Shown here one piece after another: positions 63 through 21,026 of a stretch of 21,234 bases of DNA (the stretch's first letter is position 1; the number at the start of each line of letters is the position of its first letter). The translations under genes were made by a program, and so were the position numbers. The stretch covers positions 1-21,234 of the forward strand of contig CAMLGD010000032.1 of assembly GCA_946479405.1 (NCBI GenBank), read 5' to 3'. The notes beneath the pieces were generated by a model, which made no database searches, was not told where the DNA came from, and worked only from the letters and a program-made list of their open reading frames with translations. Origin of the DNA: an uncultured Vogesella sp. (lineage in GTDB: Bacteria > Pseudomonadota > Gammaproteobacteria > Burkholderiales > Chromobacteriaceae).

Positions 63-71
63 TGCGGCCAA
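63..71 (-). repeat. TTGGCCGCA repeat copy (intergenic)
   Basis: Exact copy read on the minus strand, preceded by CG. It lies between the ABC gene stop and the terminator hairpin, so it is outside coding sequence. Confidence 0.75.
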
Positions 72-77
72 CGTAAA

Positions 78-110
78 ACGCCCCGCTAACTGACGGGGCG
101 TTGTGTTTTG
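78..110. terminator. Bidirectional rho-independent terminator
   Basis: An 8-bp stem ACGCCCCG (78-85) pairs with CGGGGCGT (94-101) around an 8-base loop. It is followed by a T-rich run on the plus strand and preceded by AAAA, which serves the minus strand. It sits between two convergent genes and can end both. Confidence 0.85.
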
Positions 111-114
111 TCGC

Positions 115-792
115 TTATTTGCTGGTGCTGGTTTTGTGTAGCGGCTTGCGTTTTTTTGACGCTTTCTGTTTCGCGGCCTTTGATGCTGTGACTTTGGGTT
201 TGCTGGCTTTGGCCGTGGCTGCGGCGGATGCCTTGCGCAGTTTGTTGGTCCCGGCTTTGTTGGTGCGCTGGCTGCTGCTGGCTTTCGGCAGCGCCTTGCT
301 GCCGTGCTTGCGGGTCTCGGCTGCGCTGCTGGCCTTGCGGCTGGCAAGTGTACTGGCTTTGCGCTTGGCAGCGATCCGGCCTGCTGACTTGCGTGCCGGC
401 CGCTTGCTGATGGCCTGTTGCGTCAAACGCTGGCGTTTGCCAGTAAGTTGCTTGCGCTTGGCATCACGTTTGCTTGTCTTGCCGGCGATGCGATGCCCAG
501 CTTTTGTTTTGCGCAACGTTGTCTGTGTAGTGGCCTGGCTGCGTTTAGCTGGTTTGCTGGCGGTTTTGTCTGCCTCTTGGCGCACCGGTTCGCTCTTGCT
601 CTGTGCCGGTGCTTTGGCCGGGCTCGGGTTTACCGGCGGCAATTGCAGCGGTTTTGCCTTCGGCGGCTTGGCAGCCGGGGTGGGCTGAAAATCGCCCGGT
701 AATGGCGCATCTTCGCCTTCGGCATGGCTCAAGCTGGCAGAAAATGCCATTGTGGCGATTAGTAATGCAGCAATGGTGCGAGTTAATTGCAT
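115..792 (-). CDS. Secreted, highly basic histone-H1-like protein of unknown function
   Basis: The predicted 225-residue protein starts MQLTRTIAALLIATMAFSAS and has a convincing Sec signal peptide, probably cleaved after SHA near residue 23. A proline-rich linker follows (about residues 28-60). The rest is low-complexity and dominated by Lys, Arg, Ala, Ser and Thr, with AAKRK and KASKK type runs. After the signal peptide I count over 50 Lys/Arg, fewer than ten Asp/Glu, no Cys, Trp or Tyr, and a single Phe. The tail resembles histone H1 and bacterial H1-like proteins, but those are cytoplasmic, whereas this one should be exported. An upstream extension would run into the divergent gene, so the Met at 792 is chosen, although no clear Shine-Dalgarno sequence precedes it. 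Binding to DNA, LPS or another polyanion outside the inner membrane is inference. I do not recognise a named family. Confidence 0.7.
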   Translation of the reverse strand: MQLTRTIAALLIATMAFSASLSHAEGEDAPLPGDFQPTPAAKPPKAKPLQLPPVNPSPAKAPAQSKSEPVRQEADKTASKPAKRSQATTQTTLRKTKAGHRIAGKTSKRDAKRKQLTGKRQRLTQQAISKRPARKSAGRIAAKRKASTLASRKASSAAETRKHGSKALPKASSSQRTNKAGTNKLRKASAAATAKASKPKVTASKAAKQKASKKRKPLHKTSTSK

Positions 793-832
793 GTGGATAA
801 ATTTAGCAGGCAAAACAGCGGTTATGCGGGCG

Positions 833-861
833 TTGTGGCCCCCGAATGAGGTTGTTATATT
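833..861 (+). promoter_or_regulatory. Predicted sigma-70 promoter for the amino-acid transporter
   Basis: TTGTGG (833-838) and TATATT (856-861) are separated by 17 bases in the 128-base gap between two divergent genes. The -10 element matches the consensus at five of six positions and the -35 element at three. Transcription would start about 50 bases before the substrate-binding protein. Confidence 0.5.
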
Positions 862-920
862 AGCACGCCGGTTGTTTGTGCAACGAATGGGCCGGCTATC
901 ACGCCTAGGAGAACAAGGGA

Positions 921-1742
921 ATGAAACAAAACAGAAGAACGCTGCTCGCGGGGATGTTGTTGTCCGTTTTCGCACTGGCCGGTTGTGGTCAGAAACAGGA
1001 GGCCCAGCAACAGGCTTCTGCACCGCAAGCTGCCGCGCCGGCAGCGGGGGGCGAGATGAAAGAATACGTAGTGGGCACGGATGCCAGCTACGCACCGTTC
1101 GAGTTCCAGAACGACAAGCAGGAAATTGTCGGTTTCGACATTGATGTGCTGACCGCTGTTGCGGCCAAGGGTGGCTTCAAGGTCAAGTTCGTGAATACCC
1201 CGTGGGAAGGCATGTTCGCCACCCTGCCGCAGGGTGACCGCGACATTCTGTCGTCCGCCATCACCATCACCGACGAGCGCAAGCAGAGCATGGATTTCTC
1301 CGATCCTTACTTTGAAGCACGTCAGCTGATCGCTGTTGGCAAGGGTGTGGCCGATGTGAAGTCGTTTGCTGACCTGAAGGCCAAGAAAGTGGCTGTACAG
1401 ACAGGCACGACTGGCGACGAAGTCGTGCAGAAGCTGCTGGGTAAGACCAACCCGAGCATCAAGCGCTTCGAAAGCATGCCGCTGGCACTGAAGGAACTGG
1501 AAGGTGGCGGGGTTGATGCTGCCGTGGGTGATAACGGTGTGGTGGCCAACTATGTGGCCAACAACCCGCAGCATGGCATGGTGACGGTGGAAGACACCAA
1601 GAGCTTTGCGCCCGAGTATTATGGCTTTGCGGTAAACAAGGGCAACAAGGAACTGCTGGACAAGATCAACGCCGGTATCAAGGCCGTCAAGGCTGATGGT
1701 ACTTACGACCAGATCTTCAAAAAGTACTTCGGTACCAAATAA
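921..1742 (+). CDS. Amino-acid ABC transporter, substrate-binding lipoprotein (family 3)
   Basis: The 273-residue product is the periplasmic binding component of a polar amino-acid importer. The N terminus has basic residues, a hydrophobic stretch and a lipobox LAGC, so the mature protein should be lipid-anchored at the Cys near residue 22. A Gln/Ala-rich linker follows. The solute-binding family 3 fold starts near residue 47 with YVVGTDASYAPFEF, then GFDIDV, DRDILSSAITITDERK and MDFSDPYFEA, which are the typical ligand-pocket segments of the GlnH/ArtJ/HisJ group. The start is supported by AGGAGA at 907-912. The exact substrate (glutamine, arginine, histidine or cystine) cannot be told from these motifs. 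A terminator separates it from the permease gene, which should make this component the more abundant one. Confidence 0.92.
   Translation: MKQNRRTLLAGMLLSVFALAGCGQKQEAQQQASAPQAAAPAAGGEMKEYVVGTDASYAPFEFQNDKQEIVGFDIDVLTAVAAKGGFKVKFVNTPWEGMFATLPQGDRDILSSAITITDERKQSMDFSDPYFEARQLIAVGKGVADVKSFADLKAKKVAVQTGTTGDEVVQKLLGKTNPSIKRFESMPLALKELEGGGVDAAVGDNGVVANYVANNPQHGMVTVEDTKSFAPEYYGFAVNKGNKELLDKINAGIKAVKADGTYDQIFKKYFGTK
1160..1168 (-). repeat. TTGGCCGCA repeat copy (coding)
   Basis: Exact copy on the minus strand inside the substrate-binding protein gene. It is the only copy preceded by C instead of G. Confidence 0.6.
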
Positions 1743-1751
1743 CAAGTTGTC

Positions 1752-1793
1752 GCAAACGGCGGGTCTGGGTTGCAGGCCCGCCGTTTGCTTTTA
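1752..1793 (+). terminator. Intra-operon rho-independent terminator or attenuator
   Basis: A perfect 12-bp stem GCAAACGGCGGG (1752-1763) pairs with CCCGCCGTTTGC (1777-1788) and is followed by TTTTA. It lies between the binding-protein and permease genes, with the permease Shine-Dalgarno immediately after. Partial read-through would give the usual excess of binding protein over membrane component. Confidence 0.85.
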
Positions 1794-1812
1794 GTATCCG
1801 GGAGGGACAAGC

Positions 1813-2556: not shown

Positions 2557-2572
2557 GCGTTGCTGCAGTCTG

Positions 2573-2602
2573 AAAAAGGCCGGATTTCTCCGGCCTTTTT
2601 TG
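2573..2602 (+). terminator. Rho-independent terminator after the transporter operon
   Basis: An 11-bp stem AAAAAGGCCGG (2573-2583) pairs with CCGGCCTTTTT (2590-2600) around a 6-base loop, giving a continuous T-tract. It closes the two-gene transporter unit before gyrA. Confidence 0.9.
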
Positions 2603-2644
2603 CGCCTGTCATCCGGTGTCGCAGCCGCTTGCAGCAGGGCTTTG

Positions 2645-2653
2645 TGGTAGAAT
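2645..2653 (+). promoter_or_regulatory. Extended -10 promoter element for gyrA
   Basis: TGGTAGAAT combines a TGn extension with a -10 hexamer matching the consensus at four of six positions, 35 bases before the gyrA ATG. The only TTG-like -35 candidate (2629-2634) is too close, which fits an extended -10 promoter. Confidence 0.45.
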
Positions 2654-2687
2654 GCGACCATATTTTTGCTCACGTTAACGGATTTCC

Positions 2688-5291
2688 ATGACCGATCAGC
2701 TTTTTGCCAAGGAAACACTGCCCGTCAGCCTGGAAGAGGAGATGCGCCGCTCCTATCTCGATTACGCCATGAGTGTGATCGTTGGTCGCGCCCTGCCAGA
2801 CGTGCGGGACGGCCTGAAACCGGTGCATCGTCGTGTGCTGTTTGCCATGCACGAGCTGTCCAATGACTGGAACCGCGCCTACAAGAAGTCTGCCCGTATC
2901 GTGGGCGATGTGATCGGTAAGTACCACCCGCACGGCGACTCTGCGGTGTACGACACCATCGTGCGTATGGCACAGGATTTCTCGCTACGTTATCCGCTGG
3001 TGGATGGCCAGGGTAACTTTGGTTCGGTGGACGGTGACAACGCCGCTGCCATGCGATACACCGAAATCCGCATGGCGCGCATCGCGCACGAGCTGATGGC
3101 GGACATCGAGAAGGAAACCGTCGATTTCGGCCCCAACTACGATGGTTCCGAACAGGAACCGTTGATCATGCCGTCGCGCATTCCCAACCTGCTGATCAAC
3201 GGCGCCGCAGGTATCGCAGTGGGCATGGCGACCAATATTCCGCCGCACAACATCACCGAGGTGATCGATGGCTGTCTGGCACTGCTGGCCAATAGCGAGC
3301 TGACCATCGATGAGCTGATCGACATCATCCCGGCGCCGGACTTCCCGACCGCCGGCATCATCTACGGTACCGCCGGCATCAAGGAAGGCTACCGCACCGG
3401 TCGCGGCCGCGCCATCATGCGTGCCCGCGTGCACTTCGAGGATATCGGCAAGGGCGACCGCCAGGCCATCATCGTCGACGAAATTCCGTACCAGGTGAAC
3501 AAGGCGCGTCTGCTGGAGCGTATCAGCGAGCTGGTGCGTGACAAGCAGATCGAGGGCATTTCCGACCTGCGCGACGAGTCGGACAAGTCCGGCATGCGCG
3601 TGGTGATCGAGCTCAAGCGCGGCGAAATGCCGGAGGTGGTGCTGAACCACCTGTACAAGCAGACCCAGCTGCAGGACAGCTTCGGCATCAATATGGTGGC
3701 GCTGGTCGACGGCCAGCCGCGCCTGCTGAACCTGAAGCAGATCATCGAGGAGTTCCTGCGTCATCGCCGCGAGGTGGTGACCCGTCGTACCATTTTCGAA
3801 CTGCGCAAGGCGCGCGAACGCGGTCATATCCTGGAAGGTCTGGCCGTGGCGCTGTCCAACGTGGACGAGATCATCGCGCTGATCAAGGCGTCGGATGCGC
3901 CGCCGCAGGCCAAGGCCGCGCTGATGGCCAAAGCCTGGCGCTCCGAACTGGTGGAAAGCATGCTTGCTCGTGTGGACCAGACCCAGGCGCGCCCGGACGG
4001 CTTGGCCGAGAACTTCGGCCTGCATCCGGATGGCTACTACCTGTCCGAGGTACAGGCACAGGCGATCCTGGATCTTCGTCTGCAGCGCCTGACCGGCCTG
4101 GAGCAGGACAAGATTGTCGGCGAATACCGCGAGATCATGGACACCATCATGGACCTGATCGACATCCTGGCCCGCCCGGAGCGCATCAATCAGATCATCA
4201 ACGACGAACTGAATGCCATCAAGCTGCAGTACGGCGATGCGCGTCGTTCCGAGATCGAGCCGTTTGGCGGCGACATCAATATCGAAGACCTGATCACCCC
4301 GCAGGACATGGTGGTAACGGTAACCCACGGCGGCTACCTGAAGGCGCAGCCGGTGGACGACTACCAGTCGCAGCGCCGCGGCGGTCGTGGCAAGCAGGCT
4401 GCTGCCACCAAGGACGACGATTTCATCGATACCCTGTTCGTGGCCAATACCCACAACTACGTGCTGTGCTTCTCCAGCTTTGGCCGTTGCTACTGGATCA
4501 AGGTGTACGATATGCCGCAGGGCGGCCGCACCAGCCGTGGCAAGCCGATTGTCAACGTACTGCCGCTGGCCGATGGTGAGAAGATCAACGCCATGCTGCC
4601 GGTGAAGGCGTTTGCCGAAGACCAGTACGTGTTCATGTGCACCGCCAATGGCACCGTCAAGAAAACCCCGCTGGCCGATTTCTCCCGTCCGCGCAGCGCC
4701 GGCATCATTGCGGTGAACCTGGACGAGGGCGATTACCTGGTGGGCGTGGCACTGACCGGCGGTAGCGACCAGATCATGTTGTTCTCCAACGGTGGCAAGG
4801 CGGTGCGCTTTGATGAAAGCAATGTGCGCGCCATGGGCCGTAACGCCACCGGTGTACGCGGTATGGCGCTGGCCGAAGGGCAGCAGGTGATTTCGCTGCT
4901 GGTGGCTAACAGCGACGAGCAGCAAGTGTTGACGGCCAGCGATGGCGGCTATGGCAAGCGTACCCGGGTGGGCGAGTTCCGCCATACCAGCCGTGGCACC
5001 CAGGGCGTGATCGCCATGGATCTCACCGACAAGACCGGCCTGGCGCTGGTGACCGCCAGCCTGGTGGAAGACAGCGACGACGTGATGCTGATCACCACCG
5101 GTGGTGTGCTGATTCGTACCAAGGTGGCCGAGGTACGTGAAACCGGCCGTTCCGCGCAGGGTGTCCGCCTGATCAATCTGGACGAGGGCGAGAAGCTGAT
5201 CTGTCTGGTGAAGGTGGCGGAGAGCGAGGAAGAGGTCGAAGGCGAGGGCGACGAGTCTGCGGCCAACGTTGACGCGGGCGAGGAAGCCTGA
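2688..5291 (+). CDS. gyrA: DNA gyrase subunit A
   Basis: The 867-residue protein is the DNA cleavage and rejoining subunit of gyrase, which forms an A2B2 complex and introduces negative supercoils. The opening segment, [19 protein letters not shown], is canonical. The catalytic tyrosine is Tyr124 in [10 protein letters not shown]. The quinolone-resistance region reads [11 protein letters not shown], with Ser85 and Asp89 at the positions of E. coli Ser83 and Asp87, so it is wild type for the common resistance changes. The GyrA box QRRGGRG begins near residue 562 and opens the C-terminal beta-pinwheel. The last 25 residues are strongly acidic, a regulatory tail seen in other GyrA proteins. It has its own promoter region and is followed after two bases by a thioesterase gene, so the three genes are probably one transcript. 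Confidence 0.98.
5258..5266 (-). repeat. TTGGCCGCA repeat copy (coding)
   Basis: Exact copy on the minus strand, preceded by CG. It lies in the variable acidic tail of gyrA, where the coding constraint is low. Confidence 0.7.
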
Positions 5292-5293: not shown

Positions 5294-5764
5294 ATGAGTC
5301 AGGCACCTGCCAACGCGGCATTGCTGCAGGCGATGGGCGAGTTGTTCGTCTCGTTTCCGCATTGTGTGACGCTGGGCTTCCAGTATCTGGGCACTGTGGA
5401 TCGCAAGCCGACACTGAAAGTGGAGTGGCGTGACGAGCTGGTGGGCAACCCGGCCACCGGCGTGGTGCACGGTGGGGTAATCACCTCTATCGTCGATACC
5501 TGTAGCGGTATTGCGGTGACCGCGCACATGACCGAGCTGGAAACCATTGCCACGCTGGATCTGCGCATCGACTACCTGAAGGCGGCCACGCCGGGCAAGG
5601 CCATCTACTGCACAGCGGAGTGCTACCGGATGGCCAACCAGATCGCGTTCACCCGTGCGGTGTGCTATCACGACAGCCCGGATGACCCGATTGCCCACGG
5701 TGTGGCCACCTTCATGCGCGATTCCAACCCCAAGCCGATGTTGGCCGCGGAGGGCAAGTCATGA
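5294..5764 (+). CDS. PaaI-type hotdog-fold thioesterase
   Basis: This 156-residue protein belongs to the PaaI/hotdog thioesterase superfamily, whose members hydrolyse acyl-CoA or related thioesters. The diagnostic HGG segment is present (TGVVHGGVITSIVDTCSG, about residues 55-72), where the conserved helix carries the catalytic acidic residue. The second half has the expected strand pattern (ATLDLRIDYLKAA, TAECYR, ITFTR-like AFTRAVCY). It starts two bases after the gyrA stop, and its own stop overlaps the ATG of a second hotdog gene, so expression should be coupled. The physiological substrate is unknown. A link to gyrase function is not implied by the family. Confidence 0.85.
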   Translation: MSQAPANAALLQAMGELFVSFPHCVTLGFQYLGTVDRKPTLKVEWRDELVGNPATGVVHGGVITSIVDTCSGIAVTAHMTELETIATLDLRIDYLKAATPGKAIYCTAECYRMANQIAFTRAVCYHDSPDDPIAHGVATFMRDSNPKPMLAAEGKS

Positions 5765-7366: not shown

Positions 7367-7390
7367 CATGCGGCCAACGTTGGCCGCATG
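7367..7390. repeat. Perfect 24-bp palindrome made of two inverted TTGGCCGCA copies
   Basis: The copies at 7369-7377 (minus) and 7380-7388 (plus) are separated only by CG and extended by CAT/ATG, giving 12 bp of perfect dyad symmetry. It starts six bases after the serC stop. It has no T-tract of its own, but a conventional terminator begins at 7397. Confidence 0.85.
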
Positions 7391-7396: not shown

Positions 7397-7425
7397 AGCC
7401 CGCCACCATGGCGGGCTTTTTGTTG
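7397..7425 (+). terminator. Rho-independent terminator after serC
   Basis: An 8-bp stem AGCCCGCC (7397-7404) pairs with GGCGGGCT (7410-7417) around a 5-base loop and is followed by TTTTTGTTGTT. It is the second hairpin downstream of serC. Confidence 0.88.
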
Positions 7426-7513: not shown

Positions 7514-8728
7514 ATGAAACTGTCACCCATGGCCCTGCTGTTGCTAGCCGCCAGTGCCATTGTCTCGCTCAGCATGGGGGTAAGGCATGGCTTTGGTTTT
7601 TTCCTGCCACCTATGACACAGGAGTTTGGCTGGACGCGCGAAACCTTTGCCCTGGCACTGGGCATCCAGAATCTGATGTGGGGTGTGGCGCAGCCGTTTG
7701 CCGGTGCGTTTGCCGACCGCTACGGCCCGGGGCGGGTGCTGATGATCGGTGGCCTGTTGTATGCGGCGGGTCTGGCCTTGATGACGGTATCCGCCAATGG
7801 CTGGCTGTTGTCCGGCTCCGCCGGGCTGCTGCTGGGGCTGGCGCTGTCCTGTACCACCTATAGCGTGGTGTTTTCCGTGATCGTACGCGCGGTGCCGGAT
7901 AGCTATCGTTCCAGTGCCATGGGGCTGACCGCGGCCGCTGGCTCCTTCGGCCAGTTCCTGATGGTGCCGATCGAGCGCGGACTGATCGATGGCCTGGGCT
8001 GGATGCCGGCGTTGCTGGTGCTGGCCGCATTGGCCGCCCTGCTGGTGCCATTGGCGGCACCGCTGCAACGAGCCTATGTGCGCGCACCAGCGGTGCCGAA
8101 GGCGACGCTCAGTGTCTGGCATGGCATCACTCATGCTTTTGGCGAAGCCTGGCAGCAGCGTTCCTTCCGTCTGCTGATGGCTGGCTACTTTGTCTGCGGT
8201 TTCCAGGTGGTGTTTATCGGTGTGCATCTGCCAGCCTACCTGCGCGATCACGGGCTGGCCGGCAATGTCGCCAGTACCGCGTTGGCGTTGATCGGTCTGT
8301 TCAACATTGCCGGCACGTATATTTCCGGCAAGCTGGGCGGACGTTATTCCAAGCCCTATCTGCTGGCGGGCATTTATTTTGTCCGCAGCGTGGTGATTGT
8401 CATCTTCCTGCTGCTGCCATTGACCAGTACCTCGGTGGCGGTGTTTGCCGCCGCCATGGGTTTCTTGTGGCTGTCTACCGTGCCGCTTACCAACGGCGTA
8501 ATCGTCAGCCTGTTCGGCATCAAGAACCTGGGCATGCTGTCCGGCGCGGTGTTCTTCTCGCACCAGGTTGGCAGCTTCCTCGGTGTCTGGCTGGGCGGGG
8601 TGATTTATGACCGTACCGGCAACTACGATCTGGTCTGGGGTCTGGCGATCGGCCTTGGGGTTGCCGCAGCGCTGGCCAACCTTCCGGTGAAGGAAACGTT
8701 GGCCGCACCGGCAGAGGCGCGGGCATGA
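7514..8728 (+). CDS. Major facilitator superfamily transporter (MCT / oxalate-formate antiporter-like)
   Basis: The 404-residue protein is an inner-membrane MFS carrier with about twelve hydrophobic segments in two halves of six, separated by a polar loop near residues 190-215. The N terminus (GVRHGFGFFLPPMTQEFGWTR) and the motif-A-like loop GAFADRYGPGRVL after the second helix resemble the monocarboxylate and oxalate/formate antiporter branch. The substrate is unknown and could be an organic acid or an amino-acid-related compound. The start is supported by AAGGA at 7503-7507. Its stop overlaps the start of a small membrane protein gene, and an O-methyltransferase and pheA follow closely, so all four are probably co-transcribed. 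Confidence 0.85.
   Translation: MKLSPMALLLLAASAIVSLSMGVRHGFGFFLPPMTQEFGWTRETFALALGIQNLMWGVAQPFAGAFADRYGPGRVLMIGGLLYAAGLALMTVSANGWLLSGSAGLLLGLALSCTTYSVVFSVIVRAVPDSYRSSAMGLTAAAGSFGQFLMVPIERGLIDGLGWMPALLVLAALAALLVPLAAPLQRAYVRAPAVPKATLSVWHGITHAFGEAWQQRSFRLLMAGYFVCGFQVVFIGVHLPAYLRDHGLAGNVASTALALIGLFNIAGTYISGKLGGRYSKPYLLAGIYFVRSVVIVIFLLLPLTSTSVAVFAAAMGFLWLSTVPLTNGVIVSLFGIKNLGMLSGAVFFSHQVGSFLGVWLGGVIYDRTGNYDLVWGLAIGLGVAAALANLPVKETLAAPAEARA
8699..8707 (+). repeat. TTGGCCGCA repeat copy (coding)
   Basis: Exact copy preceded by CG, near the 3' end of the MFS gene, read as Leu-Ala-Ala. Confidence 0.65.
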
Positions 8729-9439: not shown

Positions 9440-10515
9440 ACGTGTCGGAAGAACTGCTCAAGCAACATCGTGACGCCATCGACAATATCGATGTCGAAAT
9501 TCTCAACCTCCTCAATCAGCGCGCCCAGCACGCCCGGGACATCGGTGAAATCAAGGGCGGCGGTATTATCTATCGTCCGGAACGTGAGGCGCAGGTACTG
9601 CGTCGCGTCAAGGATCTGAATCCCGGCCCGCTGGCGGGCGAGTCGGTGGCCCGGCTGTTCCGTGAAGTGATGTCGGAATGCCTGGCGCTGGAAAAGCCGC
9701 TGTCCATCGCTTATCTCGGCCCGGAGGGTACTTTTACCCAGTTGGCCGCACTCAAGCACTTTGGCCACGCAGCGCGCACCGTTGCCTGTGGCTCCATCGA
9801 CGAGGCATTCCGCCTGGTGGAGTCGCGTGCGCTGGATTACGTGGTGGCGCCGGTGGAGAACTCCACCGAAGGTGCCATCGGCCGTACGCTGGACCTGATG
9901 GTCAGCTCGCCGCTGAAAATCTGCGGCGAAGTGGTGCTGCGCATTCACCACCACCTGCTGCGCAAGGATGGCGCCATGGACGGCATTCGTCGTGTATATG
10001 CCCATGCCCAGGCGCTGGCGCAGTGTCACGAATGGCTTAACAAGAATTTGCCGGCCAGCGTGGAGCGGGTATCGGTAGCCAGCAATGCCGAAGCTGCCAG
10101 GTTGGCCGCAGAAGAGCCTGACTGCGCCGCCATTGCCGGTCAGGCCGCAGCCGAACGTTACTGCCTGGTGAAACTGGCGGAAAACATTGAAGACGAGCCC
10201 AATAACACCACGCGCTTCCTGGTGCTGGGCAATCAGGATGTCGGTCCGACCGGGCTGGATAAGACCTCCATCATCGTGGCGGCCCCCAATCGTCCGGGGG
10301 CGGTGCACTACCTGCTGGAGCCTCTGGCGGCCAACGGCGTATCGATGACCAAGTTCGAATCGCGCCCGTCCCGCGCCGGCTTGTGGGACTACGTGTTCTT
10401 CATCGACATGGAAGGCCATGCCCAGGATGCCCATCTGGTCCAGGCATTGGCCGGTTTGCGCGAGCGCACCGCCTTCGTGAAGGTGCTGGGCGCTTATCCG
10501 CAGGCGGTACTGTAA
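9436..10515 (+). CDS. pheA: Bifunctional chorismate mutase / prephenate dehydratase
   Basis: The 359-residue enzyme converts chorismate to prephenate and then to phenylpyruvate, the committed route to phenylalanine. An AroQ-type chorismate mutase domain occupies about residues 1-90 (RDAIDNIDVEILNLLNQRAQ, YRPEREAQVL). The prephenate dehydratase domain runs from about 90 to 270, starting AYLGPEGTFTQ and including the catalytic Thr-Arg-Phe at 259-261. The C-terminal ACT domain carries ESRPS at 308-312, the phenylalanine-binding motif, so feedback inhibition by Phe is expected. The GTG at 9436 overlaps the upstream TGA; a second in-frame GTG at 9442 is also possible. A strong terminator follows. 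Confidence 0.97.
   Translation: MNVSEELLKQHRDAIDNIDVEILNLLNQRAQHARDIGEIKGGGIIYRPEREAQVLRRVKDLNPGPLAGESVARLFREVMSECLALEKPLSIAYLGPEGTFTQLAALKHFGHAARTVACGSIDEAFRLVESRALDYVVAPVENSTEGAIGRTLDLMVSSPLKICGEVVLRIHHHLLRKDGAMDGIRRVYAHAQALAQCHEWLNKNLPASVERVSVASNAEAARLAAEEPDCAAIAGQAAAERYCLVKLAENIEDEPNNTTRFLVLGNQDVGPTGLDKTSIIVAAPNRPGAVHYLLEPLAANGVSMTKFESRPSRAGLWDYVFFIDMEGHAQDAHLVQALAGLRERTAFVKVLGAYPQAVL
9742..9750 (+). repeat. TTGGCCGCA repeat copy (coding)
   Basis: Exact copy preceded by AG within pheA, read as Leu-Ala-Ala. Confidence 0.6.
10102..10110 (+). repeat. TTGGCCGCA repeat copy (coding)
   Basis: Exact copy preceded by GG within pheA, read as Leu-Ala-Ala, 360 bases from the previous copy. Confidence 0.6.
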
Positions 10516-10609: not shown

Positions 10610-11197
10610 ATGACTATTCAATCCATTTGCCTGTTCTGCGGTTCCAGTAGCGGCAGTAACCCTGCCTACAGTGACGCTGCTCGCGAGCTGGGTGCCACGC
10701 TGGCTACCCGTAACATCACCCTAGTATACGGTGGCGGCAATATCGGCCTGATGGGGTTGGCCGCCGATGCCGCGCTGGCTGCCGCTGGCCGCGTCGTCGG
10801 TGTGATTCCCGGTTTTCTGAAAGAAAAGGAAGTCGCTCATGACGGCCTGTCCGAGCTGCATGTCACCCAGACCATGCACGAACGCAAGGCGTTGATGGAA
10901 GACCTGTCTGGCGGTTTCATTGCGCTGCCTGGCGGCTTTGGCACTTACGACGAACTGTTCGAAATGCTGACCTGGGGGCAGTTGTCGGTGCATCAGAAGC
11001 CGATTGGCCTGCTCAATGTCGCCGGTTTTTTTGATCCGCTGCTGGCCATGGTGCAGCACGGTGTGCGCGAAGGCTTCATCCGCGAGTCCAATCTGGAGCT
11101 GTTCGTGGTGGCCGATACGCTGCCTGCGCTGCTCGATCGCATGAACAGCTATCGTGCCGCGCCGGTGGCCAAATGGCTGTCGCACGACAGTATCTGA
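10610..11197 (+). CDS. LOG family protein (cytokinin riboside 5'-monophosphate phosphoribohydrolase-like)
   Basis: The 195-residue protein has the Rossmann-like LOG fold. Motifs are CLFCGSSSGSNP at the N terminus, LVYGGGNIGLMG (about residues 38-49), VIPGFL, MHERKALM and the signature PGGFGTYDE at residues 107-115. Characterised relatives hydrolyse the N-glycosidic bond of nucleoside 5'-monophosphates, including cytokinin precursors and AMP. In non-plant-associated bacteria the role is often purine salvage or is unknown. It is followed after nine bases by the DAHP synthase homologue. No good Shine-Dalgarno sequence is visible. Confidence 0.9.
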   Translation: MTIQSICLFCGSSSGSNPAYSDAARELGATLATRNITLVYGGGNIGLMGLAADAALAAAGRVVGVIPGFLKEKEVAHDGLSELHVTQTMHERKALMEDLSGGFIALPGGFGTYDELFEMLTWGQLSVHQKPIGLLNVAGFFDPLLAMVQHGVREGFIRESNLELFVVADTLPALLDRMNSYRAAPVAKWLSHDSI

Positions 11198-11206: not shown

Positions 11207-12223
11207 ATGATTATCGTGATGGCCGCGAGCGCGACGGCGCCGCAAATCGATGCCGTGGTTGGCCGCATCCGTGCTGCCGGCCTGAGTGAGCACATTTCGC
11301 GCGGTACCGAGCGTACCATTATCGGCGCGGTGGGTGACGAACGTAGCTTGAGCGCCGACATGTTCGAAACCATGCCCGGCGTCGAGCGCGCCATGCGCGT
11401 GGTGAAGGATTACCGCATGGTGTCGCGCGAAGTGAAGCCGGACAGTAGCGTGGTGTCCATTCGCGGGGTGCCCATTGGCGGGCCGCAGTTGCAGCTGATC
11501 GCCGGTCCCGGCGCCATCGAAGACGCTGCGCAACTGGACGCGCTGGCGGGAGAGCTGCACGGGCAGAGAGTACGGCTGCTGCGCGGTGGAGCGTTCAAGC
11601 CGCGCACCAGCCCGTATGCGTTTCAAGGGGTGGGCGAGATCGGCCTGGAATACTTGCAGCACGCTGCCCGCATGCATGGCATGCCGATGATCAGCGAGAT
11701 ACTGGATGTGCGACTGCTGGATACCTTCCTGGAATATGACGTCGACGCCATCCAGGTGGGGCCGCGCAATATGCAGAACGTGCCGCTGCTGCGCGAACTG
11801 GGGCGCATCAACAAACCGGTGTTGCTGTATCGCGGCGTGTCCGCCACGCTGAGCGAGTGGCTGATGGCGGCCGAGTACATCGCCATCGGTGGTAACCACA
11901 ACATCGTGCTGTGCGAGCGCGGCATCCGCAGCTTTGAGCCGGCGGCGCGCCATGCGCTGGATATCACCGCCATTCCGCTGCTCAAGCGCGAGACGCACTT
12001 GCCGGTGCTGGTGGACCCCAGCCATGCCGGCGGCCGGGGCTGGCTGGTGCCGCCATTGGCTGCTGCGGCCGTAGCTGCCGGTGCCGATGGTTTGCTACTG
12101 GAAGTTCACCCCGCGCCGCAGGATGCCTGGTGCGATGCCGAACAGGCGATTACCCCGTCCGAGCTACAGGCGCTGCGTGCGCAACTACAGCCATTGGCGG
12201 CCGCTGTTGGCCGTAGCCTGTAA
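11207..12223 (+). CDS. Type I-beta DAHP synthase homologue with altered active-site residues
   Basis: The 338-residue protein has the architecture of the Thermotoga-type DAHP synthase (phosphoenolpyruvate + erythrose 4-phosphate, first step to chorismate): an N-terminal ferredoxin-like regulatory domain (residues 1 to about 70) and a (beta/alpha)8 barrel with RGGAFKPRTSPYAFQG, RNMQN, EWLMAAEYI and LCERGIRSFE. Three of the four metal ligands are in place (His273, Glu299, Asp310). The fourth, a Cys in the family motif GPCSVE, is Gly102 here (motif GPGAIE). The barrel Lys of the family motif LLKRG is Tyr208 (LLYRG), and Ala of GARNMQN is Pro. A Cys309 next to Asp310 is unusual. It could be a variant enzyme, an enzyme with another activity, or a regulatory paralogue. 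No frameshift is visible. The start gives the usual N terminus (MIIVM). Confidence 0.85.
   Translation: MIIVMAASATAPQIDAVVGRIRAAGLSEHISRGTERTIIGAVGDERSLSADMFETMPGVERAMRVVKDYRMVSREVKPDSSVVSIRGVPIGGPQLQLIAGPGAIEDAAQLDALAGELHGQRVRLLRGGAFKPRTSPYAFQGVGEIGLEYLQHAARMHGMPMISEILDVRLLDTFLEYDVDAIQVGPRNMQNVPLLRELGRINKPVLLYRGVSATLSEWLMAAEYIAIGGNHNIVLCERGIRSFEPAARHALDITAIPLLKRETHLPVLVDPSHAGGRGWLVPPLAAAAVAAGADGLLLEVHPAPQDAWCDAEQAITPSELQALRAQLQPLAAAVGRSL
11259..11267 (+). repeat. TTGGCCGCA repeat copy (coding)
   Basis: Exact copy preceded by GG. It is read in a different frame from the pheA copies, giving Val-Gly-Arg. Confidence 0.65.
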
Positions 12224-12259: not shown

Positions 12260-12712
12260 GTGAGCGAGAACGCCATCGTTAAGCTGCAGCAGCTGCAGGA
12301 CTACCGCTTTGAAAACCAGTTTGCTGATGTCGCTCAGCCGTTGCAGACCGACGAGCCGGTGCCGCTGGGCGGCGGAAGCGGCCCGTCGCCGTCGCAGCTG
12401 TTGGCTGCGGCGGTGGCTAACTGTTTGTCCGCCAGCCTGCTGTTTGCCTCGCGTAAGTTTCATATCGACTTCGAACCGCTGTCCTGCGAGGCCAATGCGC
12501 TAGTAGATCGTAACGAGCGCAATCGCCTGCGGGTGCAACGTATCGATGTGGCGCTGCGTGCCGGGCAGCCGGTGGCGGCTGCGGCCAACCTTGAGCGCCT
12601 GCTGGCTAGTTTCGAGGATTTCTGCACGGTGTCGCAAAGCGTGGCGCAGGGTATCCCTGTGCATGTCACGGTGCTGGATGCCGACGGTAGCGTGTTGAAA
12701 CAGCCTGCCTGA
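12260..12712 (+). CDS. OsmC/Ohr family protein
   Basis: The 150-residue protein belongs to the OsmC/Ohr superfamily, whose characterised members reduce organic or fatty-acid hydroperoxides with a pair of cysteines. Both expected cysteines are present: Cys55 in AVANCLSAS at the start of the central helix, and Cys122 in FEDFCTVSQSV. The GPSPSQLLAAAVANC segment is typical of the group. Translation starts at GTG 12260, with AAGGA at 12249-12253. It follows the DAHP synthase homologue by 36 bases and ends just before a bidirectional terminator. The exact subclass (OsmC, Ohr or YhfA-like) is not resolved. Confidence 0.85.
   Translation: MSENAIVKLQQLQDYRFENQFADVAQPLQTDEPVPLGGGSGPSPSQLLAAAVANCLSASLLFASRKFHIDFEPLSCEANALVDRNERNRLRVQRIDVALRAGQPVAAAANLERLLASFEDFCTVSQSVAQGIPVHVTVLDADGSVLKQPA
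12580..12588 (-). repeat. TTGGCCGCA repeat copy (coding)
   Basis: Exact copy on the minus strand, preceded by GG, inside the OsmC-family gene; the plus strand reads Ala-Ala-Asn. Confidence 0.6.
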
Positions 12713-13340: not shown

Positions 13341-13972
13341 GCCTTGCCAAGTACCCGTAGCAGCGCCTGCGACATCAGCTCCGCCATCTGCGCCAGATAG
13401 TGGGTCTGCATTTCCAGGGTAAAGCGCTGGGCATCGTCGCTGGCGATCACCAGCATGCCGAACGGTTCGGTACCATCGCGCAGCGCCAACTGGGCGAACG
13501 ACTGCAGTACCGGCGTGGGCGGGAACCAGCTGATGATTTCATCATTGGCATAGGGTCCGCAGTAGGGGGCGGACAGGTTGCCGGCCAGCAGGCGGATATC
13601 CTGCCGGCTGTTGTACAGCTCGCTGTTTTCTGCGCCCGGATGCCACAGACGCAGCGCCACGCGTGGCAGGCCAAAATGCTCGGCAAAGCTGTGCTGGATG
13701 GCGTGGTGTACTTCGGCCAACGTTTGGCCACGCAGCAGGGCGACTGCCAGTTTGTGACTGCGCGCCACGATCTGATCGTTCTGCTCACCGTGGCGGATCA
13801 GCTGTGTCAGACGTGCTTCCAGCTGACGGTTGCGATCCTTCAAGTCCAGCATCTGGCGATCGGCAAACGATACCACCCGGTCCTGCAGCGGCTTCAGGCC
13901 ATAGCGCGGCGCATGGCTGGCCAGGAAGTCCGGATTGTCGTCGAGGTAGGCCAGAATCTCTTCAGCTTGCAC
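13337..13972 (-). CDS. DUF484 family protein (GAF-like)
   Basis: The 211-residue protein matches the DUF484 family, a GAF-like small-molecule-binding fold of unknown role found next to dapF and xerC in many proteobacteria. It opens AEEILAYLDDNPDFLASHAP, the typical N-terminal helix-loop, then has a coiled-coil-like stretch (about residues 35-65, LKDRNRQLEARLTQLI) and a GAF-type C-terminal domain ending in a long helix. Start is GTG at 13972 with AAGGAG six bases upstream. It follows dapF by 36 bases that contain a small hairpin. Confidence 0.85.
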   Translation of the reverse strand: MQAEEILAYLDDNPDFLASHAPRYGLKPLQDRVVSFADRQMLDLKDRNRQLEARLTQLIRHGEQNDQIVARSHKLAVALLRGQTLAEVHHAIQHSFAEHFGLPRVALRLWHPGAENSELYNSRQDIRLLAGNLSAPYCGPYANDEIISWFPPTPVLQSFAQLALRDGTEPFGMLVIASDDAQRFTLEMQTHYLAQMAELMSQALLRVLGKA

Positions 13973-15669: not shown

Positions 15670-16169
15670 GCACACCCAAAAACAGCATGTGCCGCATGGT
15701 AGACAAGACTGCAGCACTGCCGGGCGGCCTACGCAGCTGGGCGATTACCAAGATGTTCGGCAAGTTCGTCCCGTTCCTGGGCACCGCCGGTCTGGTGTTC
15801 GAGGAAGTCAGCCGTGAACGTATGGTCGTCAGCGTCAAGAACCGCAAGAAGGTGCAAAACCACATCCACGGCCTGCACGCCGCGGCGATGGCGCTGCTGG
15901 CGGAAACCGCTACCGGTTTTGTGGTGGGCATGAACGTACCGGATGACAAGCTGATGCTGCTCAAATCGATGAAGGTCAGCTACTTCAAGCGCGCGCAGGG
16001 CAATATGAAGGCCGTTGCCACGCTGAACGCGGAGCAGGTTGGCCGCATGCAGCTGGAGGAAAAGGGCGACGTGCTGGTAGATGTACTGGTGACCGATGAG
16101 TCCGGCGAAGCACCGATTGCCTGTGAAATGGTGTGGGCCTGGGTGCCCAAGAAGCGCAAGGAGGGCTGA
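15666..16169 (+). CDS. DUF4442 family hotdog-fold protein
   Basis: The 167-residue protein resembles DUF4442, a hotdog-fold group related to PaaI thioesterases. Typical features are HIHGLHAAAMALLAETATGF (about residues 66-85), where the family has its HxxG/HGG-like helix start, and KSMKVSYFKRAQG, the following strand. It lacks a strict HGG, so catalysis may differ from the two thioesterases near gyrA. GAGGAG at 15652-15657 supports the ATG, which overlaps the TetR stop. Position between a TetR gene and a crotonase gene points to acyl-CoA metabolism. Confidence 0.75.
   Translation: MSTPKNSMCRMVDKTAALPGGLRSWAITKMFGKFVPFLGTAGLVFEEVSRERMVVSVKNRKKVQNHIHGLHAAAMALLAETATGFVVGMNVPDDKLMLLKSMKVSYFKRAQGNMKAVATLNAEQVGRMQLEEKGDVLVDVLVTDESGEAPIACEMVWAWVPKKRKEG
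16039..16047 (+). repeat. TTGGCCGCA repeat copy (coding)
   Basis: Exact copy preceded by GG in the DUF4442 gene, read as Val-Gly-Arg. Confidence 0.65.
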
Positions 16170-17002: not shown

Positions 17003-17039
17003 AAAAAGGTTGGCCGCAGTGTTGCGGCCAACCTTTTTT
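17003..17039. terminator. Bidirectional terminator built from two inverted TTGGCCGCA copies
   Basis: A perfect 16-bp stem has arms AAAAAGGTTGGCCGCA (17003-17018) and its complement (17023-17038), with a GTGT loop. The T-run (plus strand) and A-run (minus strand) make it bidirectional between convergent operons. The motif copies are at 17010-17018 (plus) and 17023-17031 (minus). Confidence 0.93.
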
Positions 17040-17741: not shown

Positions 17742-19642
17742 GCGGCTTGTCTTTCAGTCTGGGGCAGGGTGAGGCAGACCTCGGTACCGCTGCCGGGCAT
17801 GGGGCGGATGGCAATGCGGCCGTGAATACGGGCAGCACGCTCCTGCATGATGGAAAGGCCGACGTGGCGTGCCTTGCGTGCTTCGAAGCGCTGCTGGTCG
17901 AAACCGCAGCCATCGTCACGAATAGTCATCACAAAATCGGCCTCGTTACGGATGTCGATGCTGACATGGGCGGCCTGTGCATGCTTGCGCACATTGGACA
18001 GCGCTTCCTGCAGGATGAAAATCACCTGCAGCTGCTGTTGCGGGTCCAGCGGCAGGCCGTTGCCGTGCATCGCCAGCTGGGTGGCAACCTGGGTCTGCTG
18101 CTCGAAGCGGGTCAGCAGGGTGTGTACCGCGTCGTTGAAGTCTTCCTTGTTGATGCGGGTGCGGAAATTGAGCAGTAGTTCGCGCACGTCTTCGTAGCAT
18201 TCCTGCACCCCGGTGCGGATGAACCCCAGGTTCTCCTGCGCCTGTTCCTTCTCGCCACTGGCCATGGCCGCTTCCAGCATCTGTACCTGCAGATTGAGGA
18301 AGGACAGCGACTGCGCAATGCTGTCGTGCAGACCCTGTGCCATCAGGTTGCGCTCTTCTGCCACGGCAAACTGGCGGTCACGTGCGGCCAGACGCTGGTT
18401 TTCGATTGCCAGCCCCAGGTGATTGCCCAGGGTTTCCAGCAGGAACTGGTCCTGTGGCGACAGCGGGGTTACCTTGCGGAAGTACAGGGTGAAGATGCCG
18501 ACATTGCTCTGGTTGTGGCGGACATGGAATACCGAGATTTCCTGGAAGCCGGCGCGCTGGCAGTGCTTTTCCTCGGCATGCTGCATGCGGTCGAAGCGGC
18601 GGATGACGGCAAACGGTTGCGGAACGGCATCTCCACAGTGGCAACCATTCAGTGGCGCGCAGTGGTCGTCGGCGAGCATCTCCGCCGGCAGGCCGTGTTC
18701 GGCGATCAGCTCCAGGCGGCCGCGTTTGACATCGACCAGCCGCACACTGCCGGCATCGGCGCCGGTCAGCTCGATCAGCCGGCTGATGAAACCGTCGCAC
18801 ATGGTTTCCAGCTCGTGCGATTCATGCAGGAACGAGGTGGTGCCATACAGCGCGGTGAGATGACGGTTTTTCTCTTCCACCGAGCGGGTTTTGTCCACCA
18901 CCTTTTGCTCCAGCGTGGCATACAGATCCTGCAGGTGGTCCGCCATCTGGTTGAAGCCGGTGGACAGCAGTGCAAATTCGTCGTTGCCGCTGACCTCCAC
19001 CCGTGCGTCCAGCTCGCCGTCGCGCAGCCGGGTGATAGCCTCGCCCAGGGTGTTGAGCGGGCGGATCACCAGCAGGAACAGCAGGAACATCATGGTGAAC
19101 GAGCCGACAATCGCCATGGCGATCAGCGCCATCTGGAAGAAACGCAGCAAGGTGGTATTGCGTGCGTTGTCCTCCTCGATCAGCCGCACCAGGCGATCGA
19201 TACGGTCGACAAAGCGGGTGACATCGGGGCGAACCTGATTGTTGGGGCGTGGTGGTTGCGCGGCGGCATGCTGCAGTTGCGGCAGGATTTCGCCATGCCA
19301 GTGCTGCTCGATTTCCTCGGCCTGCTGGCGTACCGCGGCATTATCCGGCAGGAACAGCGGGCGCGCCGGGTCGCCCTTCTTCAGGCGGGCGAGGGTGTCG
19401 GTGAAGTCTTGCTGCTCTTGCTGGATGATGGTCAGCGGCGCGTTTTCGCTGACCAGCAGCGCCACGTGGTAGCTGCGCATGCGCAGGCTGCCGGCATCGT
19501 TGATGGCGGCAGCGCCGCCTTCCAGCTTCCACGACAGTACCAGGGTGTAGCCGATAGAGGTCATCGCCAGCAGCAGCCAGGCGACGGTGAGCATCAGCAG
19601 CTTGCTGGACAGGCTGCGCATTTGCGGCGTTTGGCTGAGCAT
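17738..19642 (-). CDS. narX: NarX-type nitrate/nitrite sensor histidine kinase
   Basis: The 634-residue protein has a first membrane helix at about residues 15-37, a periplasmic sensor domain with a P-box-like segment (AINDAGSLRMRSYHVA, residues 46-61) as in nitrate sensors, a second helix at about 168-193, a HAMP linker, a GAF-like central module, a HisKA_3 dimerisation domain with His439 (GLHDSIAQ) and a C-terminal ATPase (QEALSNVRKHA, DDGCGF). The central module has a cysteine cluster: Cys328, Cys334, Cys336 and Cys361. The Met at 19642 is chosen because it puts a short basic segment before the first helix; the open frame further upstream enters the divergent regulatory region. It overlaps narL by four bases and is divergent from molybdenum cofactor genes. 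Confidence 0.9.
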   Translation of the reverse strand: MLSQTPQMRSLSSKLLMLTVAWLLLAMTSIGYTLVLSWKLEGGAAAINDAGSLRMRSYHVALLVSENAPLTIIQQEQQDFTDTLARLKKGDPARPLFLPDNAAVRQQAEEIEQHWHGEILPQLQHAAAQPPRPNNQVRPDVTRFVDRIDRLVRLIEEDNARNTTLLRFFQMALIAMAIVGSFTMMFLLFLLVIRPLNTLGEAITRLRDGELDARVEVSGNDEFALLSTGFNQMADHLQDLYATLEQKVVDKTRSVEEKNRHLTALYGTTSFLHESHELETMCDGFISRLIELTGADAGSVRLVDVKRGRLELIAEHGLPAEMLADDHCAPLNGCHCGDAVPQPFAVIRRFDRMQHAEEKHCQRAGFQEISVFHVRHNQSNVGIFTLYFRKVTPLSPQDQFLLETLGNHLGLAIENQRLAARDRQFAVAEERNLMAQGLHDSIAQSLSFLNLQVQMLEAAMASGEKEQAQENLGFIRTGVQECYEDVRELLLNFRTRINKEDFNDAVHTLLTRFEQQTQVATQLAMHGNGLPLDPQQQLQVIFILQEALSNVRKHAQAAHVSIDIRNEADFVMTIRDDGCGFDQQRFEARKARHVGLSIMQERAARIHGRIAIRPMPGSGTEVCLTLPQTERQAA

Positions 19643-19705
19643 GTTAGGTCGTCCGGTGGATAGGCAGGGCCATGCCGGCGCGGCACAATGATAGCGAGTC
19701 CGGAG

Positions 19706-19714
19706 TTGGCCGCA
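19706..19714 (+). repeat. TTGGCCGCA repeat copy (intergenic)
   Basis: Exact copy preceded by AG, in the 178-base gap between the divergent narX and mobB genes. A partial inverted copy (GCGCGGCC) follows directly. Confidence 0.75.
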
Positions 19715-19749
19715 GCGCGGCCGGGGCAGAAGAGGGCATGGCGTAACTT

Positions 19750-19777
19750 TTGCTGACAATACTGACAGCTCTACCAT
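19750..19777 (+). promoter_or_regulatory. Possible promoter for mobB-moaD-moaE
   Basis: TTGCTG (19750-19755) and TACCAT (19772-19777) are 16 bases apart, upstream of the mobB GTG. The match is moderate. I did not find a convincing FNR or NarL site in the gap. Confidence 0.3.
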
Positions 19778-19820
19778 AGCGCTGCGGCGCTGTCGCCACA
19801 ATCCACCAAAAGGAGAGGGT

Positions 19821-20315
19821 GTGCAGAAAGTACTGGGCATTGCCGGCTGGTCCGGCAGTGGCAAGACCACGCTGATCGAAGCCTTGCTGCCAAGGTTGGC
19901 CGCACGCGGCCTGCGCGTGTCGGTGATCAAGCACAGCCATCATGATATCGAGCCGGATGTGCCGGGCAAGGATACCTGGCGCCACCGCCAGGCGGGGGCG
20001 GCCGAGGTGATGCTGCTGTCGCCGCACCGGGTCACGGTATTTGCCGAGCTGGCACAGGAGCTGACGCTGGAACAGCAGCTGGCGCGGTTGCAGCCGGTGG
20101 ATCTGGTGCTGCTGGAAGGGCAGAAATGGCAGCCGGTGCCCAAACTGGAGGTGTATCGCCCGCAGCTTGGCAAGCCATTGCTGTGCGCCGAAGACAGCCG
20201 GGTACTGGCGGTAGCCAGCGATGCGGTACTGGACATCGCGCTGCCGCAACTGGCATTGAATGATTACGACGCCATCGCCGATTTCATCGTGCACTGGCAG
20301 GAGGAAGGCAAGTGA
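19821..20315 (+). CDS. mobB: Molybdopterin-guanine dinucleotide biosynthesis adaptor MobB
   Basis: The 164-residue protein is a small P-loop GTP-binding protein that assists MobA in attaching GMP to molybdopterin. The Walker A motif is GWSGSGKTT at residues 9-17. The family segments [20 protein letters not shown] and [16 protein letters not shown] are all present. Translation starts at GTG 19821 with AGGAG at 19811-19815. Its stop overlaps the moaD GTG. It heads the three-gene molybdenum cofactor unit. Confidence 0.95.
19896..19904 (+). repeat. TTGGCCGCA repeat copy (coding)
   Basis: Exact copy preceded by GG in mobB, read as Leu-Ala-Ala. Confidence 0.6.
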
Positions 20316-20563
20316 GTATCCGCATTCTGTATTTTGGCCGTCTGAAAGACGCGCTGGGCCGTGGTGAGGAAACCCTGGACTGGGCCGGTGGCGATAGCGC
20401 CGCGCTGTTGGCTGCACTGCGCGGCCGGGGCGAAGACTGGGCCGAGGCGCTGGCTGCCGGCAAGGTGTTCCGTCTGGTGGTGAACCAGCAGGTGGTGCGC
20501 GGCGAAGTGGTGATTCCGGATGGTGCCGAAGTGGGCATCCTGCCGCCGGTAACCGGGGGCTGA
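20312..20563 (+). CDS. moaD: Molybdopterin synthase small subunit MoaD
   Basis: The 83-residue ubiquitin-like protein is the sulfur carrier of molybdopterin synthase. It begins [12 protein letters not shown] and ends PPVTGG, the double-glycine tail that is thiocarboxylated. The start is GTG at 20312, overlapping the mobB stop, with a strong AGGAGGAAGG just upstream. The moaE ATG follows one base after its stop. Length is normal. Confidence 0.95.
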
Positions 20564-20564
20564 T

Positions 20565-21026
20565 ATGCACTGCCACATCACCGTACAGCAGGGCCGCTTC
20601 GATCTGGCGGCAGAAGAGGCCGCACTACGCGCCGTGGCCGGCGATGCCGGCGCACTGGTGGCGTTTCAGGGCATGGTGCGCGGCCATGATGCCGCCACAC
20701 CGTTGGCCGCATTGTTCCTGGAGCATTACCCCGGCGTGACCGAGGCCGAGATCGGCCGTATTGCCGATGCGGCCGCCGGGCGCTGGCCGATCAGCGCGGT
20801 GCGGGTGGTACACCGTGTGGGCCGCCTGGTGCCGGGCGAGCAGATCGTGCTGGTGCTGGTGGCATCCGCCCACCGCAAGGCGGCCTTTGCCGCCGCCGAA
20901 TACCTGATGGACTACCTCAAGACCGAGGCGCCGTTCTGGAAGCGTGAGGATTTTACCGATGGCAGCAGCCGCTGGGTGGACGCCAAAGCCAGTGACGACG
21001 CCGCTGCCGCCAGCTGGGGCGACTGA
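20565..21026 (+). CDS. moaE: Molybdopterin synthase large subunit MoaE
   Basis: The 153-residue protein is the catalytic subunit that, with MoaD, converts precursor Z (cPMP) to molybdopterin. Diagnostic segments are AFQGMVRGHD, FLEHYPGVTEAEI, VVHRVGRLVPGEQIV, the SAHRKAAF loop, and YLKTEAPFWKRED, which holds the two conserved catalytic-site lysines. The C terminus is an Ala/Asp-rich extension. It is the last gene of the mobB-moaD-moaE unit, and no terminator is visible before the window ends. Confidence 0.96.
   Translation: MHCHITVQQGRFDLAAEEAALRAVAGDAGALVAFQGMVRGHDAATPLAALFLEHYPGVTEAEIGRIADAAAGRWPISAVRVVHRVGRLVPGEQIVLVLVASAHRKAAFAAAEYLMDYLKTEAPFWKREDFTDGSSRWVDAKASDDAAAASWGD
20703..20711 (+). 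repeat. TTGGCCGCA repeat copy (coding)
   Basis: Exact copy preceded by CG in moaE, read as Leu-Ala-Ala. Confidence 0.6.

Follow-up and report, generated by a model that had tools for sequence, protein, structure and literature searches.

A dense short repeat in Vogesella is probably a DNA uptake sequence, with a ComP-family minor pilin as candidate receptor

Why does one short word recur so often in the DNA of an uncultured Vogesella species? The window (the whole stretch of 21,234 nucleotides analysed here) contained 16 copies of the 9-mer TTGGCCGCA, compared with a mean of 0.60 and a maximum of 3 in 100 dinucleotide shuffles. An earlier note, made from the letters alone, had listed these copies and read them as an unrecognised DNA uptake sequence (DUS). 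All 16 were present at the listed starts, 10 on the plus strand and 6 on the minus strand. A leading G preceded 15 of them, giving the 10-mer GTTGGCCGCA, and the sole exception was the copy at 1160; the fuller frame is (A)AGGTTGGCCGCA. We refer to this word as the GCA word. Both inverted pairs that had been claimed were confirmed, one as a palindrome (7369-7388) and the other as a stem (17009-17032). Two details needed correction. Six copies had been called non-coding; five were clearly intergenic (63, 7369, 7380, 17010 and 17023), and the sixth, at 19706, probably is, its status hinging on a kinase start codon set by eye. Near-matches were found at 10757 and 14002 as described, but the one given as 5751 lies at 5741, and at 8030 there was none that contained the 8-mer core.

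Genome-wide checks were run on Vogesella oryzae and relatives, which stood in for the window's own genome. The window protein PheA was 98% identical to that of V. oryzae, and the DNA was 86.3% and 88.8% identical across two aligned stretches. In a GyrA tree of the window and 50 of 61 genomes of the family (a one-gene tree with a midpoint root, whose deepest forks are weak, 71/71), the window adjoined V. oryzae in a 14-row group made up of the window and 13 GCA-word genomes (support 100/100). From the DNA identity and this placement, we infer that the window belongs to a Vogesella species distinct from V. oryzae.

The V. oryzae genome (G001, about 3.4 Mb) contained 2,273 copies of GTTGGCCGCA, 1,110 and 1,163 on the two strands, and 13 copies (7 and 6) of the reversed word. 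Among the 61 family genomes, the count was 1,871-2,895 in 13 (4-14 for the reversed word) and no higher than 58 in the remaining 48. The GCA-word genomes include V. oryzae, V. urethralis, V. aquatica, V. margarita, V. indigofera, 'Beta proteobacterium L13' and two Neisseriaceae metagenome-assembled genomes (MAGs). Another of them, G079, is probably Vogesella sp. LIG4, since the ComP proteins of the two (see below) are identical. For de novo analysis we took 400,000 bases from 6 V. oryzae contigs, or about 12% of the genome. GTTGGCCGCA occurred 290 times in this sample, more often than any other 10-mer, and also had the highest z of all 10-mers under an order-5 Markov model. The word is a genuine, genome-wide repeat. 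The earlier note had asked whether the word ranks first, is spread evenly and is enriched in inverted pairs near stop codons; in V. oryzae and its relatives it ranked first, populated both strands and formed pairs near stop codons, and neither a missing genome-wide excess nor confinement to a few loci, which it had named as refuting outcomes, was seen.

The shape of the word was analysed in the same 400 kb. Information in the flanks lay mostly at -3 (A 0.47), -2 (A 0.64) and -1 (G 0.51, C 0.31), and there was almost none beyond -4 and +11. The form AGGTTGGCCGCA occurred 99 times against 0.28 expected under an order-2 model. Positions +1 to +9 were tight, with 0-4 copies per substitution, and changes at -2, -1 and +10 left 3-70 copies. 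The 70 copies of the AC form at -2/-1 are explained in part by back-to-back pairs, which share that geometry and account for 11 of the 25 close inverted pairs. The mean spacing was 1.5 kb and the longest gap 7.7 kb. No marked strand skew was found in six stretches, for example 36 plus and 35 minus copies in 100 kb.

We then related the sites to home-made gene calls for this sample (350 genes, 86.1% coding). Of the 290 sites, 190 were in genes, 92 were intergenic and 8 lay across a border; intergenic DNA made up 13.9% of the sequence and held 31.7% of the sites. The copies within genes were 104 sense and 86 antisense, and all six reading frames were used. The word is G+C-rich and contains GGCC, as a by-product of codon or dinucleotide bias might be; however, the scarcity of the reversed word, the six-frame reading and the background level in relatives of like G+C leave that explanation with next to no probability. 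A chromosome-organising or recombination site, resembling the FtsK-orienting polar sequences (KOPS), Chi or a nucleoid-protein site, would also be short, frequent and genome-wide, and binding of a protein to the word is plausible. Such a site is nevertheless improbable here, because there was no marked skew by strand or by gene direction, and because inverted pairs at stop codons, a dialect that changes between genera and a background level in close relatives would be atypical of it.

Inverted pairs within 35 bp numbered 25, against a null mean of 3.7 and a maximum of 12 in 1,000 randomisations. Twenty of the 25 were intergenic, and in 16 the middle of the pair was no more than 35 bp from a stop codon. 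In the window, the pair at 7369-7388 has the geometry most frequent in V. oryzae, and a terminator-like stem at 7397-7417 is separate from this palindrome and 3' of it. The pair at 17009-17032 forms a 16-bp stem spanning 17003-17038, with runs of A and T on its two sides (fold z -5.4 and -7.8). This stem fits a two-way intrinsic terminator, though a consensus scan made no call. Such pairs are what a transcription terminator element or a dispersed repetitive extragenic palindromic (REP)-like repeat would leave, but just 50 of the 290 copies were paired, most were single and intragenic, and the flanks carried almost no information; we consider this origin very improbable. Taken together, counts, layout and missing skew ruled out codon bias, a terminator or REP element and a strand-biased chromosome motif.

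Three of the four longest gaps between words had a G+C content of 0.565-0.571 and one of 0.673, compared with 0.632 overall, and two of the four held foreign-looking genes, as judged by eye. Among the word-free stretches were G001:C18:1923-8896 (0.565) and C1:23760-31414 (0.571); by eye, one of these two contained small phage- or plasmid-like frames, and the other a large secreted-type protein and a transporter. The low-G+C word-free stretches fit foreign DNA that lacks the word.

The positions of the word turned over between species. When the window was aligned to V. oryzae, 8 of 10 copies were intact, compared with 29.7% of all 10-mers. At 8 other Vogesella loci, 1-3 of 6-8 aligned copies were intact against a background of 15-18%, and each locus carried 10-18 copies of its own per 19-21 kb. 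Word density is maintained while positions shift.

Two sister words were found in related genera. The GAA word GTTGGCCGAA was present in 8 of the 61 genomes: strain JH1-16 (G025; 2,168 copies), G074 (1,851), G014 (1,368), G071 (1,245), Pseudogulbenkiania ferrooxidans 2002 (G009; 1,104), P. subflava (G008; 893), Crenobacter oryzisoli (G024; 579) and a groundwater MAG (G027; 183). Its flanks preferred A at -2 (0.55) and G at -1 (0.59). The next two genomes, G070 and G069 (78 and 77 copies), were sampled because they combined a high rank in the ComP-like search with a slight GAA excess. Their top 10-mer de novo was a third word, the GAG word GTTGGCCGAG (74 in 100 kb and 38 in 75 kb), which occurred 1,940 and 1,590 times in the two whole genomes and at most 165 times in the other 59. 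The 12-letter forms of the sister words are AGGTTGGCCGAA (GAA) and AGGTTGGCCGAG (GAG). Word-bearing genomes thus total 23 (13 GCA, 8 GAA and 2 GAG). In an order-level draw of 250 genomes, five had more than 1,400 copies of GTTGGCCGMR, all within the 23, and the other 245 had at most 221.

A few genomes stood out from this pattern. In G305 (139/31), G227 (208/71) and G129 (214/79), GTTGGCCGMR was in mild excess relative to the reversed word, reflecting either bias or decayed words. G014 is titled an uncultured Aquitalea MAG, stands apart from Aquitalea in the GyrA tree and is perhaps mislabelled. G027, from a groundwater Pseudogulbenkiania, has few GAA words though its ComP carries both motifs described below; its assembly may be incomplete or mixed, or its system may be decaying.

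No dominant word was found in 440 kb of Aquitalea, 269 kb of Chromobacterium, 181 kb of Paludibacterium or 121 kb of Craterilacuibacter. The best 10-mer z in these four relatives was 6.2-8.2, compared with 40.8 in 200 kb of V. oryzae; one 20-kb Aquitalea piece with a 55-copy array was left out. Samples of 20 kb each from G051, G072 and G073 and of 21 kb from Crenobacter caeni also gave no word, though short samples can miss one: 12.7 kb of C. oryzisoli failed to rank the GAA word first despite its 579 genome copies. The remaining wordless genomes were checked for the three words alone, or by 20-kb samples. One candidate Aquitalea word, CTTGGCCTTG, was suspicious in 81 kb (about 6 kb of it counted twice), yet it was rejected after only 13 copies were found in 460 kb. 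Other repeats were noted in passing. CTTGGCCTTGA recurs within one region of Aquitalea (L021, L022 and L024; 6-7 copies in 21 kb) and is local, not a genome-wide word. The omitted piece (L313; G021:C1:1-20000) carries 55 copies of a TAGGCAGCTC-containing repeat and resembles an array of clustered regularly interspaced short palindromic repeats (CRISPR). In 21 kb of Azonexus hydrophilus (L079), TCGACCGCA had 11 copies against 0.82 expected, on both strands and with unrelated flanks, and is a possible genome-wide word of another betaproteobacterial group.

To our knowledge, uptake words have been described in two families of bacteria, the Neisseriaceae and the Pasteurellaceae. The uptake signal sequence (USS) of Pasteurellaceae is an abundant, self-marking word that is unrelated in sequence to the Vogesella word. 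Species with the USS have no ComP homologue, according to the accessible part of Berry et al. (2016; PMC4906244). For the Neisseriaceae, the accessible part of Frye et al. (2013; PMC3630211) describes eight DUS dialects, all of which keep CTG, held to be essential, at +6 to +8, and overlapping DUS dyads in Simonsiella. Measured against that description, the words found here share many features with neisserial DUS: a length of 10-12 letters, about one copy per 1-2 kb in the richest genomes, and both strands; AG at -2/-1, C at +6 and G at +8, with A at +10 in the GCA and GAA words; overlapping dyads, inverted pairs at gene ends, intergenic enrichment and one dialect per lineage. The A/C change at +9 has a counterpart in kingDUS and king3DUS. 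The 5' extension, which in DUS is AT, AG, AA or TG at -2/-1, is here the preference for A and G given above for V. oryzae and the GAA genomes. Unlike neisserial DUS, the GAG word has G at +10, and the hosts belong to the Chromobacterium-Vogesella-Pseudogulbenkiania group, with a best identity of 8 or 9 of 12 letters.

The earlier note had called the word unlike the neisserial dialects. This was right in that the CTG core is missing; yet the GCA word has 8 of 12 letters in common, in the same register, with both AG-simDUS and AG-mucDUS, and the GAA word has 9 of 12. Shuffle P values, in register and with free strand and offset, were 0.017 and 0.082 for GCA, 0.003 and 0.009 for GAA, and 0.015 and 0.061 for GAG. 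The similarity is suggestive only.

A ComP-like minor pilin, for which the earlier note had proposed a search, has a relative in these genomes: all 23 word-bearing genomes contained a candidate type IV prepilin. The best solved-structure match of the V. oryzae prepilin (G001:C22:14321-14743) was Neisseria ComP (2m3k, E 1.5e-6), and a profile of 13 Vogesella-type sequences also placed ComP first (E 2.3e-10). The P. ferrooxidans protein matched Pfam family PF16732 (ComP_DUS, E 2e-17), and ComP chains were its top matches in PDB. Compared with ComP (PDB 2m3k, 5hz7 and 2nba; accessible part of PMC4906244), the candidates share an N-terminal methylation motif and a [YF]K..S..WPxLP-type stretch. A ComP-like family search gave some match in 58 of 61 genomes. 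Its first 22 rows were all word-bearing genomes; the 23rd, G074, was at row 27, below the wordless G032, G002, G056 and G065. PF16732 itself was not diagnostic, being above the cut-off in 12 of 12 genomes tried, wordless ones included.

Receptor motifs were compared in 45 of the 50 tree genomes (23 word-bearing and 22 wordless); two of the remaining five, all wordless, had weak ComP-like matches. The motif [YF]K..W[PA]xLP was present in 21 of 23 word-bearing genomes and N[TVA]D in 22 of 23, and neither was found in the 22 wordless genomes. For C. violaceum, the accessible part of Frye et al. (PMC3630211) reports no ComP by BLAST; Chromobacterium species in this survey had a diverged ComP relative. 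A ComEC-family gene was found in 11 of 11 genomes tested.

The genomic setting of comP raises another candidate. In V. oryzae, comP faces aroB, aroK, pilQ, pilP and pilO (these five named by reading), and its start overlaps a GspH/FimT-like gene directly upstream (PF12019, E 5.2e-8). The word might thus be an uptake word read by another pilin, such as this FimT/GspH-like one, with ComP as a bystander. FimT is a DNA-binding pilin that reportedly mediates DNA uptake, and we know of no word preference of FimT. This arrangement would also agree with the lack of the DD-region cysteines in the candidate ComPs. However, the ComP variants co-vary with the word, most clearly in the N[TVA]D motif, and in the nearest family that uses such words the receptor is known to be ComP. 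We therefore regard a receptor other than ComP as rather unlikely.

An uptake word read by a ComP-family pilin must be weighed against several contrary points. C in place of T at +7 gives all three words a CCG core, unlike the published dialects. In alignments between genera, 0-2 of 3-8 sites retained the core, where background would give 9-20%; positional memory is thus absent for Pseudogulbenkiania and slight for JH1-16. The V. oryzae prepilin matched no Pfam family at E 0.001, and at that threshold 9 of 13 Vogesella-type relatives matched ComP_DUS. The DD region of neisserial ComP is held by four cysteines (accessible part of Berry et al. 2016; PMC4906244), whereas the candidates have two C-terminal cysteines alone and other loops. 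Both motifs were chosen after inspection, and after correction for kinship their link with the word came down to 3 independent pairs, agreeing or neutral and too few for significance (p 0.25 or above). A pilin tree (56 rows) does not part ComP from other neisserial minor pilins: the 42-row side of a 99/99 branch holds the candidates, three neisserial ComP-like rows and other neisserial minor pilins, with weak inner forks. One of those ComP-like rows belongs to strain PsAf; no DUS was prominent in the 21 kb sampled from that strain. The ComEC-family gene also occurred in 3 tested wordless genomes and in 10 of 14 control genomes. Finally, the accessible texts contained no account of natural competence in Vogesella, and one Vogesella genetics study used conjugation.

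With both sides considered, the interpretation offered by the earlier note gains support from the rank of the word, its spread over both strands, the pairs at stop codons and the ComP relative. We hold it highly probable that the word is an uptake signal, and put somewhat less confidence in the ComP-family pilin as its receptor. The whole explanation, a DNA uptake sequence with a ComP-family minor pilin as candidate receptor, we judge on these comparisons to be quite probable. The best reading of the three words is that they are new DUS-like dialects, with CCG for CTG, outside Neisseriaceae proper. Because the CTG core and the four-cysteine region are missing and the pilin tree does not separate the candidates, we do not class them as neisserial DUS and ComP; we see them as a variant with, most likely, the same mode of action. 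Vogesella would bind outside DNA by its type IV pilus through the ComP-family minor pilin, and DNA carrying (A)AGGTTGGCCGCA would be preferentially taken in and then recombined. Words in donor DNA would favour their own transfer and so build up where they are tolerated: between genes, in stem-loops past stop codons and at permissive sites within genes. AGGTTGGCCGAA and AGGTTGGCCGAG would play an equivalent part in related genera.

How old such a system might be was considered on the GyrA tree. The genomes with the GCA word formed a single branch (100/100), as did those with the GAG word (98/93). On the best tree, the GAA word required 4 changes and so did wordlessness; in each case well-supported branches force 3 of the 4. 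The scatter of GAA over several deep branches suggests that GAA is the old form, lost in the Chromobacterium, Aquitalea, Paludibacterium and Craterilacuibacter-like lines. As GAA is also the nearest to the neisserial dialects, a shared old origin with losses is plausible. Alternatively, the words may have been gained independently, given a single-gene, midpoint-rooted tree with weak deepest forks. A joint reading can be put forward tentatively, with a probability slightly short of even. Word-guided uptake would predate Neisseriaceae, and the common ancestor with the Chromobacterium-Vogesella group would have used a word near AGGTTGGCCGAA and a ComP-type pilin. The CTG core would then be a neisserial derivation, changes at +9 and +10 would have produced GCA and GAG, and the four wordless lines would have lost the system, their ComP changing or vanishing. 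An origin before the Chromobacterium split runs against the published scheme, as given in the accessible part of PMC3630211.

In the open PMC literature, no such words were described for Vogesella or Pseudogulbenkiania beyond Frye et al., whose Table S1D (PMC3630211) lists over-represented 10-mers of two Pseudogulbenkiania-type genomes; the GAA word may stand there unrecognised. When the words were searched as text, the matches listed were unrelated by title.

The features of the window are collected in Table 1. Apart from these, the minus strand at 115-1095 holds an open reading frame for a putatively exported, very Lys/Ala-rich protein that by eye resembles histone H1.

Table 1. Copies of the word and of one sister word in the window. 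Genes were named from Pfam matches, except gyrA and mobB, which were named by reading. The last column gives the aligned Vogesella loci at which the copy is intact.
Position	Strand	Feature	Intact at Vogesella loci
63..72	-	GTTGGCCGCA word (ACGTTGGCCGCA); intergenic	
1160..1168	-	TTGGCCGCA without leading G, within solute-binding protein gene	
5258..5267	-	Word in 3' end of gyrA	4/7
7369..7388		Back-to-back word pair, perfect 20-bp palindrome, directly 3' of stop codon of class-V aminotransferase gene (serC)	
8698..8707	+	Word within major facilitator superfamily (MFS) transporter gene	
9741..9750	+	Word within chorismate mutase/prephenate dehydratase gene	0/9
10101..10110	+	Second word within chorismate mutase/prephenate dehydratase gene	9/9
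11258..11267	+	Word within 3-deoxy-D-arabino-heptulosonate 7-phosphate (DAHP) synthase gene	1/9
12580..12589	-	AGGTTGGCCGCA within OsmC-like gene	
13714..13721	-	Sister word ACGTTGGCCGAA, single copy (8-mer core, then AA)	
16038..16047	+	AGGTTGGCCGCA within DUF4442 gene	
17009..17032		Inverted AGGTTGGCCGCA pair between convergent enoyl-CoA hydratase and response-regulator genes	
19705..19714	+	Word between sensor-kinase and mobB-like genes (kinase start uncertain)	
19895..19904	+	AGGTTGGCCGCA within mobB-like gene	
20702..20711	+	Word within moaE gene	

If the words are uptake signals, the CCG dialects and their diverged receptor candidates would be natural variants for studying DNA recognition by ComP. 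Comparing lineages that have the word with those that lack it would allow the gain and loss of such systems to be followed, and the words may mark long-resident DNA in these genomes.

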